DNA of 64,000 bases from Desulfosarcina sp. BuS5. GTDB taxonomy: Bacteria > Desulfobacterota > Desulfobacteria > Desulfobacterales > BuS5. Location: contig NZ_CP087952.1 in NCBI RefSeq assembly GCF_028752835.1, forward strand, positions 2,275,041 to 2,339,040, written 5' to 3'. A model generated the notes under the pieces. The model saw only the letters and a list, made by a program, of their open reading frames with translations, had not been told where the DNA came from and did no database searches. The first letter of the stretch is position 1; each line of letters opens with the position of its first letter. Positions 8,636 to 30,530 of the stretch are shown one piece after another. A program made the translations under genes and the position numbers.

Positions 8636-10259
8636 ATGAATAATACCCTGATATAGCAACAAGATCAAACCATAAACACTGATAAACTCGGAATTTTTGG
8701 TGAGTACTTTTCCAGGTTAAAAGTTGGAAGCATGCTCAACAAATCAGGTATAAGCAAAACCAAAGGCGCATCTCCTCTGGAATTGTTCTTCATTGTCTTC
8801 AACCTGGCATTTATTGGTAAAAACTTCTTTGAAGGTGTAGTGCGGAATAAAAAAATAGCTGTCGGCAAAGATGCTGTGTATAATTTTTTGAACTCATCCA
8901 CATACAACTGGCGACGTTTCACACTTCTTCTTAGTAGCCGGATTTATTTTCTCATTAAAAATCTTTTGAATGATTCTTACGAAGAAGTTCTCATTTTTGA
9001 TGATTCGACATACGACAGAAGCCGTTCCAAAAAAGTTGAGCTTCTTTCTCGTGTATTTGATCATTCAACCAGCAAATATTTAAAAGGATTCAGGTTGCTG
9101 ACTCTTGGCTGGTCTGACGGGAACAGTTTCCTTGGAATTGATTTTGCCCTGTTGTCATCAGCAAAAGAAAAAAATTGCTACAATGAAATTAATCCCGGTA
9201 TTGATAAACGAACATGTGGCTATCAACGCCGCAAAGAAGCGATAACAAAATCTACAAAGTTATTGGAACCAATGGTCAAAAGTGCCATTAAGATTGGTGT
9301 CCAGGCGAAGTACCTTGCAATGGATAGTTGGTTTTCAATGCCTTCGGTTATCTCAACCCTTCGCAATCATATCCATATTATCTGCATGCTTAAGGACCAC
9401 CCCAACTGGCTCTATGAGTACAATGGGAAGAAACTCCGGTTGAAAGACCTCTATGGCAAGCTAAAGAAAAAAAGTAACCGTTCACGGTTATAGGTTCACA
9501 GTCAACGGTTGAAAAATATAGCAGGTTTCGGTTGATTCGCTTCGCTTAATCCACCCTACAAACTTACGTTGCTCTTGAACCGTAGGGTGGATTAAGGAGC
9601 GTAAGCGACGAATCCACCAAAGTAGCTGTCCCGCCTTACGTTGATGGCCTGAGATTCAATTTATAAACAGGAAATTATGCCGCTTGTAACCGTGAACGGT
9701 TACGAAAAAAAGAGGAAAGGCCAAAATCAAAGCCAGTGTTTTTGTCACATTGTCTGACGGGAACAAAGCAAGAATCATTTTTGTCCCCTGTGACAAAAAA
9801 CGAGGTTGGCTCGCTCTTTTATCAACAGATATTTCCATAGCTGATGAAGAAATAATAAGGCTATACGGCAAACGCTGTGACATTGAAGTATTTTTTAAAA
9901 TGTGCAAGCAATATCTGAAACTGGTCAAAGAAATTCAAATCCGGAACTATGATGGTTTAATCGGACACACTTCCCTGGTAATGGCCAGATACAATATATT
10001 GAGCCTGTTCCAAAGAGAAAGCGTTGCCCAGCGGTCTTTTGGAGATTTATTCAGAGCCTGCAATGAAGAATTGTCCAGCATAACTTTCATTGATGCCCTG
10101 AAGAGGATAATGCAACTGGCCATGGCTGCACTACGCAATGCTCATAATTTATCTGAGAGGGTTATAAACTCCATTCTCGACCTGATAATGGGGGAAGCTA
10201 TTGCATATTTCGGCCTTAATAATAGCCCAATGCCCCAATTGGAGGGGGAATGGAGGTGA
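8636..10259 (+). pseudogene. IS4-family transposase, broken by a nonsense codon and a MITE
   Basis: DDE transposase. The natural start is probably the ATG at 8636 (AGGAGA upstream, reading MNNTLI), but codon 7 is TAG at 8654; the frame then stays open through the ATG at 8732 (GSMLNKSGISKTKG). After KLKKK at about 9473 a 230-bp R3 element intervenes. Removing it with one 8-bp duplication copy joins to RGKAKIKASVFVTLSDGNKA in frame and continues to 10259. The IS4 signature Y(2)R(3)E(6)K is present as YGKRCDIEVFFKMCK, and a first catalytic Asp fits the IFDDSTYDRS stretch. It cannot now make full-length protein. Confidence 0.88.
9474..9703. mobile_element. R3 miniature inverted-repeat element (MITE), copy 1
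   Basis: The 230-bp non-coding element has perfect 16-bp terminal inverted repeats (GTAACCGTTCACGGTT). It is flanked by an 8-bp direct duplication GAAAAAAA at 9466-9473 and 9704-9711. The centre forms a long hairpin from GGTGGATTCGC/TTAATCCACCCTAC-type arms. A second copy lies at 28967-29198. Confidence 0.92.
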
Positions 10260-27064: not shown

Positions 27065-28744
27065 ATGAGTTTCGAAAATTTAGATTTGATAGACGAGTTA
27101 TTACAAGCAGTTAATGAACTAGGATTTATTGAACCAACGCCCATCCAGACAGATGCAATTCCTGAAATTATTGGAGGGGAGAGGGATCTTGTAGGACTTG
27201 CCCAGACCGGAACAGGGAAAACAGCAGCTTTTGGTTTGCCCATGATCCAGCTAATTGATTTTGATCTGAAACATACTCAAGGGGTGGTGATTTGCCCCAC
27301 CAGGGAACTCTGTTTGCAGATTTCAGCTGATATTAAAAAATTATGCAAATATGTAAACAATGCAAAGGTTGCTGCCGTTTATGGCGGCGCCAGCATTGAA
27401 ACACAGAGGAATCAGATCAAAAAAGGTGCTCAGATTATTGTGGCAACACCAGGTAGATTACTTGATCTTATTAATAAAAAAATAGCAAAGCTTTATCAAG
27501 TCTCATATCTGGTTCTTGATGAAGCGGATGAAATGCTAAATATGGGATTTCAGGAAGATATAGATGCCATTCTTAAAAATACGCCGGCTCAGAAAAGAAC
27601 CTGGCTGTTTTCAGCAACAATGCCCCATGAAGTTGCAAAAATTGCAAAAAAATATATGAAAAATCCGGTTGAGATAACCATAGGAAAGAAAAATAGTGGG
27701 GCGGAAAATATTGCGCATGTTAATTATATCGTTAAAGAAAAAGACAGGTATCAGGCGTTAAAACGAATTATTGATTATTACCCGGATATTTATGGCCTTG
27801 TGTTTTGTCGCACGCGAAAAGATACACAGGAAGTAGCAGAAAAACTGATCAAAGATAACTATAATGCGGACGCCCTTCATGGTGACCTTTCCCAGGGAGT
27901 ACGCGACAAAGTCATGGGCAGATTTAAAACCAAATCCCTTCAGATTCTTATTGCAACAGATGTTGCTGCTCGCGGGATAGATGTTCAGAATATAACCCAT
28001 GTCATAAACTATAAACTCCCCGATGAGGCGCAAAACTATACTCACAGGAGCGGCAGAACTGCAAGAGCGGGGAAATCAGGAACCTCCATAGCCATTATCA
28101 ACTCCAGGGAAAAAAGCAAACTTCAGTTTATACAAAAAAAGGCAGGAGTTAAATTTAATTATGCAAAAGTCCCGGAAGGATATGCAATTTGTGAGAAACA
28201 GCTCTATTTCATGATTAACAAAATGGTAGAAGTTAAAGTGGATCATAAAGCAATCGGACGTTTCCTGCCGCCAGTATATAATACATTAAGCGACCTTACA
28301 AAAGAAGAGCTCATTCAAAAGTTTGTTTCAATTGAATTTAACCGCTTTCTTTACTATTATAAAGGTTCCAAAGATATAAATGTATCATTGACAACAAAAA
28401 AAGATGCTCATCGTCCTGCAAAAAAAAGACGACAACAAAAAGGTTTAGAACCTGGAAAATCGAAACGGTTTTTTCTAAATAAAGGATCCAAGGACAATCT
28501 ACAAAAAGGCGCTGTTATAAGAACTCTATGCAGCAGAGCTGGAATTAGCTCTGAAAATATTGGTGCAATAGAAATCATGCGGGAATGTTCTTTTTTTGAA
28601 GTTGAAACAAATGTTGCGGATAACGTGTTAAAATCAATGAAAGATGCAAAAATAGACGGCCGAAAGATTCAGGTTGAATATGCCGAAAATAAGAAATCGC
28701 AAACCAAACGATCTAAAAAAAGTAAAAAGAGAAAAAAACGTTAA
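27065..28744 (+). CDS. deaD: DEAD-box ATP-dependent RNA helicase
   Basis: RNA helicase of the DeaD/CshA/DbpA type, 559 residues. Helicase motifs in order: Q motif EPTPIQTDAIPEI, Walker A AQTGTGKTAAFG, VATPGRLLDL, DEADEMLNMGF, SATMP, LVFCRTRKDTQEV, ATDVAARGIDVQ and HRSGRTARAG. A DbpA-type RNA-binding domain follows (about residues 470-540, RTLCSRAGISSENIGAIEI), and a very basic tail ends in KKSKKRKKR. It probably acts in ribosome assembly or cold adaptation. Monocistronic in appearance. Confidence 0.93.
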   Translation: MSFENLDLIDELLQAVNELGFIEPTPIQTDAIPEIIGGERDLVGLAQTGTGKTAAFGLPMIQLIDFDLKHTQGVVICPTRELCLQISADIKKLCKYVNNAKVAAVYGGASIETQRNQIKKGAQIIVATPGRLLDLINKKIAKLYQVSYLVLDEADEMLNMGFQEDIDAILKNTPAQKRTWLFSATMPHEVAKIAKKYMKNPVEITIGKKNSGAENIAHVNYIVKEKDRYQALKRIIDYYPDIYGLVFCRTRKDTQEVAEKLIKDNYNADALHGDLSQGVRDKVMGRFKTKSLQILIATDVAARGIDVQNITHVINYKLPDEAQNYTHRSGRTARAGKSGTSIAIINSREKSKLQFIQKKAGVKFNYAKVPEGYAICEKQLYFMINKMVEVKVDHKAIGRFLPPVYNTLSDLTKEELIQKFVSIEFNRFLYYYKGSKDINVSLTTKKDAHRPAKKRRQQKGLEPGKSKRFFLNKGSKDNLQKGAVIRTLCSRAGISSENIGAIEIMRECSFFEVETNVADNVLKSMKDAKIDGRKIQVEYAENKKSQTKRSKKSKKRKKR

Positions 28745-28827: not shown

Positions 28828-28966
28828 GTAAATTTGTTCTATTTTTTAAGCTTTTGCTGCGCAACGGCTATTCCTCATCATTTTTAAATAATCCAAGACC
28901 ATACGCGGGGTCATTAATATTGGTTTGTTTTTCTTTGTCACATCCCCTTGAACCATTTCCTTTTTC

Positions 28967-29198
28967 GTAACCGTTCACGGTTATAGATTCACAGTTGACG
29001 GTTGAAAAATACAGCAGGTTTCGGTGGATTCGCTTCGCTTAATCCACCCTACAAACTTACGTTGCTATCTTGAACCATAGGGTGGATTAAGGAGCGTAAG
29101 CGACGAATCCACCAAAGTAGCTGTCCCGCCTTACGTTGATGGCCTGAGATTCAATTTATAAACAGAAAATTATGCCGCTTGCAACCGTGAACGGTTAC
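28967..29198. mobile_element. R3 miniature inverted-repeat element (MITE), copy 2
   Basis: The 232-bp element has the same 16-bp ends (GTAACCGTTCACGGTT) as the copy at 9474, and only scattered substitutions plus a 2-base indel inside. An 8-bp target duplication CCTTTTTC flanks it at 28959-28966 and 29199-29206. It sits between deaD and the DUF4143 ATPase without disrupting either. Confidence 0.92.
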
Positions 29199-29330
29199 CC
29201 TTTTTCTTTGGACATGACAGATAACTATAATCATTTGTTTAGGGAAGCTTTGAATTGACAAAACAGTACTATTCATGATATTTAATTTTCAATATTCAAT
29301 TTACATAGTGTCTATTATAATTAAACGGGT

Positions 29331-30530
29331 ATGATTAAAAGGGCTCTTGAAAATAAACTGAAAAAAGCGGCAACACAGTATCCTGTTGTCACTATAACCG
29401 GGCCGCGACAGTCAGGAAAGACAACCCTGGTTCGTGCAGTTTTTAAGGATTACGATTATGTATCTCTGGAAGATCCGGAATTTCGTTCTTTTGCCCTTGA
29501 AGATCCGCGCGGTTTCCTGCAGCAATTTAGAAAAAATGTCATTTTTGACGAAGTTCAGCGGACACCTGAACTTTTTTCCTATATCCAGACAATAGTGGAT
29601 GAAAAAGACAGAACAGGGCAATTCATTCTCACTGGTTCTCAAAACTTTCTTTTATTAGATAGTATCAGTCAGACCCTGGCCGGCCGTTGTGCCATTTTGC
29701 ATTTATTACCATTCTCTCGGGATGAACTTGCCGGGATTCCATCTTTGCCGGTGAATCAGATAGGCCTAACCCTTCCGATTGACCGGAAAATTCCGGATGT
29801 AGACCTGCATAGTCAATTGTTCCATGGGTTCTATCCACGTATTCATGATAAAAAACTTGATCCTCAGGATTGGCTGAAAAATTATTATCAGACATATCTT
29901 GAACGTGACGTTCGTGAAATAATTAATGTTGGTGACCTGGAAACATTTCGCAGGTTTACTGCTCTTTGCGCCGGCCGCACCGGACAGCTATTGAATTTTT
30001 CTAATCTCGCATCGGATTGTGGTATTACCCATACAACAGCAAGGCGCTGGTTATCTGTTTTGGAAGCAAGTTTTCTCGTCGTTCTCCTCAGACCACATTA
30101 TCAGAATTTCCGGAAAAGGCTGGTTAAGGCTCCTAAACTCTATTTTTTAGATACAGGCCTGCTTTGTTACCTGTTGCGCATCAGGGAACCTGATGAGTTA
30201 GCATTCCACTCTGCCCGAGGCGCTATTTTTGAGACCTTTGTAGTTTCAGAACTTTATAAAAGGGCTTTTAACGCGGGACAGGATCCTGATTGTTTTTTCT
30301 GGCGGGACTCAGCCGGGCATGAAGTTGATCTAATTGTTGATCTGGGCAGCACATTGGTGTCCATAGAAATAAAATCAGGAGCCACAATAAGTAAAGATTT
30401 TTTTAAGGGTCTTAATTATTGGCAAAATCTCACCGAAACTAAAGTCAAAAGTAGGGCGGCATTAATATATGGGGGCAATAATTCTATGATACGCAATAAA
30501 ATTAACGTATATGCCTGGTGGAACTTTTGA
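29331..30530 (+). CDS. ATPase with DUF4143 domain (AAA_14 family)
   Basis: A 399-residue P-loop ATPase. Walker A is GPRQSGKTTLV (about residues 24-34), Walker B is NVIFDEVQRTPE, and LTGSQNFLLL is the sensor region. The C-terminal DUF4143 part has SNLASDCGITHTTARRWL (a winged-helix-like segment) and a PD-(D/E)XK-like core DSAGHEVDLIVD with SIEIKSG. Such proteins are abundant in mobile or accessory regions and their role is unknown; toxin-antitoxin or defence functions have been suggested for relatives. No operon partner. Confidence 0.88.
   Translation: MIKRALENKLKKAATQYPVVTITGPRQSGKTTLVRAVFKDYDYVSLEDPEFRSFALEDPRGFLQQFRKNVIFDEVQRTPELFSYIQTIVDEKDRTGQFILTGSQNFLLLDSISQTLAGRCAILHLLPFSRDELAGIPSLPVNQIGLTLPIDRKIPDVDLHSQLFHGFYPRIHDKKLDPQDWLKNYYQTYLERDVREIINVGDLETFRRFTALCAGRTGQLLNFSNLASDCGITHTTARRWLSVLEASFLVVLLRPHYQNFRKRLVKAPKLYFLDTGLLCYLLRIREPDELAFHSARGAIFETFVVSELYKRAFNAGQDPDCFFWRDSAGHEVDLIVDLGSTLVSIEIKSGATISKDFFKGLNYWQNLTETKVKSRAALIYGGNNSMIRNKINVYAWWNF

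Follow-up and report, generated by a model that had tools for sequence, protein, structure and literature searches.

Related mobile elements

Two papers describe IS66-family elements with 8-bp repeats (PMC3281130, PMC12898284), and bacterial MITEs are described, in PMC3189936 (MITEPsy1/2), as short, gene-free elements with inverted ends that are presumed to be mobilized in trans. The repeat family analyzed here, R3, resembles both. Like the ISBst12-like group of IS66, as presented for ISDge4 in PMC12898284, it has 8-bp duplications and short tips that start with GTA. We also examined the sequences of the plasmid IS66 elements ISAva2 and ISH10, which have GTA-starting tips and perfect 8-bp repeats. 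R3 differs from these ISBst12-like elements (ISDge4, ISAva2, ISH10) in being gene-free and in having a different tip, GTAACCGTTCACGG, while its proposed resident partner differs from them in carrying an extra DruA/DUF4338 gene.

REP populations are usually treated as products of RAYTs. The core of R3 is like a REPIN, or GTAG doublet with its RAYT, in that it consists of two opposed GTAG palindromes that are matched at a resident RAYT; unlike in the usual REPIN, doublets of the R3 type lie mostly inside MITEs with other ends. In A. variabilis GTAG-15, according to PMC3733652, a larger inverted repeat regularly encloses the REP dimers, so the nesting itself has precedent. That text ties the outer palindromes of GTAG-15 to neither a transposase nor a target duplication, whereas the outer arms of R3 are bordered by 8-bp duplications and share their tip with a resident IS. 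In the literature searched, we found neither an IS66-type MITE described as having a REPIN core, nor a mention of either tip sequence, nor a combination of DruA or DUF4338 with IS66. Most likely, in our view, R3 is a MITE that an IS66-family transposase mobilizes in trans, with a captured REPIN copied as a passenger.

Structure and setting of the insertion at 28967-29198

The window is the whole analyzed stretch of 64,000 nucleotides from the genome of Desulfosarcina sp. BuS5 (4.18 Mb, two contigs). The R3 copy under study has the following features, in window coordinates:

28959..28966, no strand: left target duplication CCTTTTTC
28967..29198, + strand: R3 element, 232 bp, best read as an IS66-type MITE
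28967..28983, + strand: left terminal repeat GTAACCGTTCACGGTTA, a near-palindrome by itself
29023..29052, - strand: REP unit 1, 30 bp, GTAGGGTGGATTAAGCGAAGCGAATCCACC, the same as REPs at the RAYT locus
29077..29113, + strand: REP unit 2, 37 bp, 35 of 37 positions matching the REP downstream of the RAYT
29182..29198, - strand: right terminal repeat, one mismatch in 17 bases against the left repeat
29199..29206, no strand: right target duplication CCTTTTTC

The original prediction of 8-bp duplicates around a 232-bp copy was borne out by the two CCTTTTTC sequences at 28959-28966 and 29199-29206, and so was the near identity of this copy to one at 9474, with 222 of 230 aligned bases matching. Its description as the second copy is accurate for the window, while genome-wide there are 19 R3 loci. 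The tag of REP unit 2 is mutated in this copy and reads ATAG in place of GTAG.

The insertion lies between two same-strand genes, for a DEAD-box helicase (27065-28744) and a DUF4143 ATPase (29331-30530), and its fold is far more stable than those of shuffled sequences (z about -7). Such a setting might suggest that the host retains the copy for a function of its own, as a transcript hairpin between the two genes, and that its mobility is past. We regard this as very improbable, given that an Rfam search returned no family match and that R3 copies are scattered with duplications, one of them inside a repeated open frame. This last copy is the other one in the window:

9466..9473, no strand: left target duplication GAAAAAAA
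9474..9703, + strand: R3 copy, 230 bp, located in an open frame that recurs elsewhere in the genome
9704..9711, no strand: right target duplication GAAAAAAA

The 9474 copy has an empty site in the same genome, a paralogous stretch (L164) with a single GAAAAAAA that aligns without gaps to the joined flanks of the copy over 620 bp, at 95.8% identity. This indicates that R3 is a real insertion, consisting of 230 bp plus an 8-bp duplication. The open frame broken by the insertion gave no family in a Pfam search; it may be transposase-like.

The R3 family in the genome

A DNA search of the whole genome with R3 gave 47 matches, and the 19 R3 loci comprise 17 near-full copies, one interrupted copy (L108), and one truncated copy (L019). 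The near-full copies have the traits of MITEs: they are 209-232 bp long and gene-free, with inverted tips and a target duplication of fixed length (8 bp). They are on average 97.9% identical to each other in pairwise comparisons (range 95.2-100%). The duplication is perfect in 12 of the 17, and the remaining five match at three to six of the eight positions. Judging from its ends and duplication, R3 belongs most plausibly to the MITEs of IS66 type, with a REPIN as its core. One of its copies, at C1 3889015, lies inside a 45-kb stretch (C1:3849532-3894064) with 13 Y1_Tnp matches, many of them in 338-aa frames, which makes this stretch a dense array of tyrosine transposase genes.

A longer relative of R3, with the REP pair plus about 75 bp of extra sequence on one side, is found in the genome of a sister species (G002, locus L324). 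Two loci of the BuS5 genome, L020 and L021, contain part of this extra sequence without IS66 tips, and L020 is 85% identical to the longer relative over 208 bp. Based on this relative and the partial matches to it, R3 appears to have arisen from an older composite by shortening.

A resident IS66 element with the same tips

Searching the genome with GTAACCGTTCACGGTTA at up to two mismatches yielded 106 matches, compared to none for the reversed control. Paired matches outline R3, a MITE family of about 222 bp (L101-L104, perfect duplications in two of four), and a longer IS66 element; among the matches listed, there is no other tip pair at IS-like spacing. The longer element has the tips GTAACCGTTCACGGGTA and GTAACCGTTCACGGGCA and is found in eight regions, in three of which it measures 2818 bp:

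L091 663-2991 (C1:950874-953691), with L092-L098: resident IS66 element, eight copies

The transposase of this element belongs to the IS66 family (PF03050; NF033517 at 266.6 bits, cut-off 180), and the full 483-aa protein is encoded, at 100% identity, in four of the eight copies. Next to the transposase gene, the element also encodes a DruA/DUF4338 protein (PF14236), with the full frame in seven of the eight copies, while TnpA and TnpB were not identified among the larger open frames. A search of viral contigs for the resident transposase provided no lead.

The original prediction had proposed a search for a full-length IS with the same ends, and this element is one, since its terminal 14 bp (GTAACCGTTCACGG) are identical to those of R3. 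It is thus a resident autonomous element with the same ends over 14 bp only, and R3 has the 8-bp duplication and GTAA tip of IS66 elements. When the ends are compared by eye, R3 and the resident element differ from base 15 on, and nothing past base 14 was seen to be common to both. Since only the outer 14 bp are common, R3 is not a simple internal deletion of the resident IS66, and the lack of internal IS66 sequence in R3 leads us to propose only that the resident transposase is used in trans. From these sequence comparisons, we infer that the resident IS66 transposase acts on R3, a link that is weakened by the restriction of the common sequence to the outer 14 bp and by the presence of an 8-bp duplication (GAATATTA) at only one of the eight IS copies.

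A larger IS66 family of the genome (16 matches at 176 bits) was rejected as the partner of R3, as it has no bounding tip pair: four of its loci plus one related 482-aa locus, scanned at up to four mismatches, had scattered weak tip matches only. At L110 404-421 (C1 about 3802804), an isolated 18-bp palindrome, GTAACCGTGAACGGTTAC, lies between ATATTAAA and ATATTGAA; it resembles what would remain of a MITE that collapsed to a single tip within its duplication.

Tips and transposases in other genomes

A scan of 84,980 species genomes for pairs of tips at a distance of 180-210 bp gave 97 stretches. The 80 stretches that were examined hold 84 elements; the 8-bp duplication is perfect in 51 of them and matches at seven or eight positions in 63. 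Counted from record names, these 84 elements come from 29 assemblies, all of them MAGs, labeled as planctomycetes, Desulfobacterales and other deltaproteobacteria, Nitrospirae, Nitrospinae, Bacteroidia, and one cyanobacterium; the rarer labels carry a real risk of misbinning, which is less of a concern for the Pirellulaceae records, whose contigs measure 0.1-1.2 Mb. The cores of these foreign same-tip MITEs are unrelated to the R3 core, and GGTGGAT/ATCCACC is absent from those examined (near-identical cores were skipped). Among the genomes searched, the REP-bearing form is restricted to the genus of BuS5. The tip identifies a group of MITEs that several lineages hold in abundance and that was not found in the literature searched. 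The original prediction that the transposase may be widespread is likely true, as the 14-bp tip is present in many genomes; the reason given for it, the arms of the R3 core, was not supported.

In 15 genomes chosen for having matches, exact tip counts range from 3 to 433, and ten of the 15 have any IS66 match. The Planctomycetaceae MAG Ncb351_bin65 (G041, L189) contains 433 exact 14-bp tips in 3.5 Mb, and a search of this assembly for an IS66 gene found none. Many of these MITEs (L190, L196, L216, L263, L323, and others) have the tip extended by degenerate repeats, e.g., CGGTTNACNGTT, which are possibly extra binding sites. L317 and L318 were considered as large tip-bounded transposons and rejected for want of a matching duplication; we read them as separate MITE ends, and the frames inside them are presumably ordinary chromosomal genes, judging by their look.

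Within the phylum of BuS5 (297 genomes), at least one exact tip is present in 24 genomes and at least two in 16, compared to 7 and 1 for the reversed control. Close relatives of the resident transposase (E up to 1e-40) are present in four of the 297, BuS5 included, and two of the other three contain a single exact tip each, a number that does not exceed chance. Tip and close relative thus show little overlap across these 297 genomes (24 vs 4), and this rarity of finding them together, along with the five of 17 R3 copies without a perfect duplication, further weakens the link between IS66 and R3. The poor overlap may be explained by gaps in MAG assemblies at repeated IS copies.

The enzyme that moves R3 could instead belong to another transposase family, or be an absent IS66 with ends nearer to GTAACCGTTCACGGTTA. 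The divergence of R3 and the resident IS from base 15 is in keeping with this, as are the many tip-rich genomes in which no close relative of the resident transposase was found. In addition, the 222-bp MITE family and unpaired tips continue GGTTT or GGTTG, so there may once have been an IS with GGTT tips. However, the only coding elements found between such tips, in the BuS5 genome and in G043, encode IS66 transposases. In a Bacteroidia-labeled MAG, such tips (one altered) enclose an IS66 transposase with 62.7% identity to the resident one, and more distant IS66 relatives (about 29%) adjoin the related tips GTAAGCGATCACGGG and GTAACTGATCACAGG. On balance, we consider a different enzyme unlikely and favor an IS66-family transposase acting in trans. 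For an IS66 transposition assay, R3 offers a clear tip along with a candidate partner.

Target preference

The original prediction also proposed a preference for A-tracts, to be checked by comparing all genomic copies. The BuS5 genome agrees: among the 12 perfect R3 duplications, ten have at least four A's or four T's in a row, compared to about 14% expected. The expected fraction (0.12-0.15) comes from 8-mers drawn from the R3 copies' own flanks in three distance ranges, and not one of 20,000 draws came up to the observed fraction. The same comparison for same-tip elements of other genomes (perfect duplications in 51, or 47 once repeats were removed) gave a run fraction of 0.36, compared to 0.07-0.09 expected. 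The GC-rich subset of 31 of these elements has a run fraction of 0.26, compared to 0.04-0.05 expected, and its total A+T is not significantly different from that of the nearest flanks (p 0.14). A or T also predominates at the second base outside the duplication, in each of the three groups. Other genomes have some GC-rich duplications, CCGGCCGC being an example, and A-run targeting is a preference only, with no absolute rule.

The REP pair core, its RAYT, and a second MITE

The arms of the R3 core (TTAATCCACCC) are GTAG-type REP units in inverted orientation, i.e., a REPIN. A RAYT gene is located at about C1:2505759-2506278 (NF047646 at 195.4 bits, cut-off 80); a single REP precedes it and a REP pair follows it. 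REP1 of R3 is identical at 30 of 30 positions to two of the REPs at this locus, and REP2 matches the longer type at 35 of 37. R3 therefore has what defines a REPIN, namely two opposed GTAG palindromes and a cognate RAYT that is flanked by the same REPs. The original prediction took the central TTAATCCACCC arms as informative about the R3 transposase, which did not hold, since they are REPs of the RAYT system and separate from the ends. For the same reason, we rejected the core as part of the transposase signal.

As the genome has a RAYT with cognate REPs, one could propose that the RAYT moves the whole of R3, with the REP doublet active and the outer arms as passengers. This is extremely improbable, because all intact R3 copies have their boundaries at the GTAACC tips, with 8-bp duplications, and not at the REPs, and because same-tip elements with unrelated, REP-less cores show the same duplication elsewhere.

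To count REP units, we searched the genome with GTAGGGTGGATTAAG at up to one mismatch, which gave 73 units (reversed control, 0): 38 in R3, 21 near an end of a second MITE, M2, three at the RAYT locus, and 11 elsewhere. The M2 assignment means a REP within 260 bp of an M2 end, and several of these units rest on a single recognized end. R3 is the main carrier of REP in this genome. Altogether, 59 of the 73 units lie in or beside MITEs with non-REP ends, so REP copy number alone would be misleading.

M2 is unrelated to R3 and has the ends CAGAAATTTACAAACT (L327-L347, C1:95297-95496, and others). Seven distinct elements of 137-373 bp were outlined, after one row was dropped as an alternative right end of the first element. 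Perfect 5- or 6-bp duplications are found in six of them and none in the seventh. One of the seven, of 137 bp, has no REP and by eye shares only end regions with the other M2 elements, so the capture is not visible as a simple insertion. We recognized no partner IS for M2 from paired ends at IS-like spacing, and a clean version of R3 or M2 without the REP pair was sought and not found. Thus, related REP pairs are present on two MITE families that have different ends and duplication lengths.

The ends, the duplications, the empty site, the same-tip IS, the REP-RAYT identity, and the census can be read directly from the sequence. In the mechanism that we propose, an IS66-family (DDE) transposase would recognize the 14-bp tip GTAACCGTTCACGG, prefer A/T-run targets, and leave an 8-bp duplication. 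A REPIN, which is a pair of REP hairpins from the system of the RAYT (an HUH tyrosine transposase), would have been captured inside R3 and then copied at each MITE transposition. The MITE-borne REPs would have been multiplied in this way, and most REP units in the genome would be MITE passengers. It is possible, though less likely than not, that REPs spread by a second route, as cargo of unrelated gene-free transposons (R3 with 8-bp and M2 with 5-bp duplications), in which case a genome could be rich in REPs without a correspondingly active RAYT. Going further, the RAYT, as a single-strand enzyme, might favor hairpin-forming MITEs as targets, and REP capture would then be recurrent.

Only the 11 REP units outside R3, the M2 neighborhoods, and the RAYT locus might bear on independent, RAYT-driven spread. 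They lie at C1:271803, 1603040, 2483783, 2497772, and 3131719 and at L020 and L021, and the REP pair of L020 is enclosed by another inverted repeat, GGCTACC..GGTAGCC.
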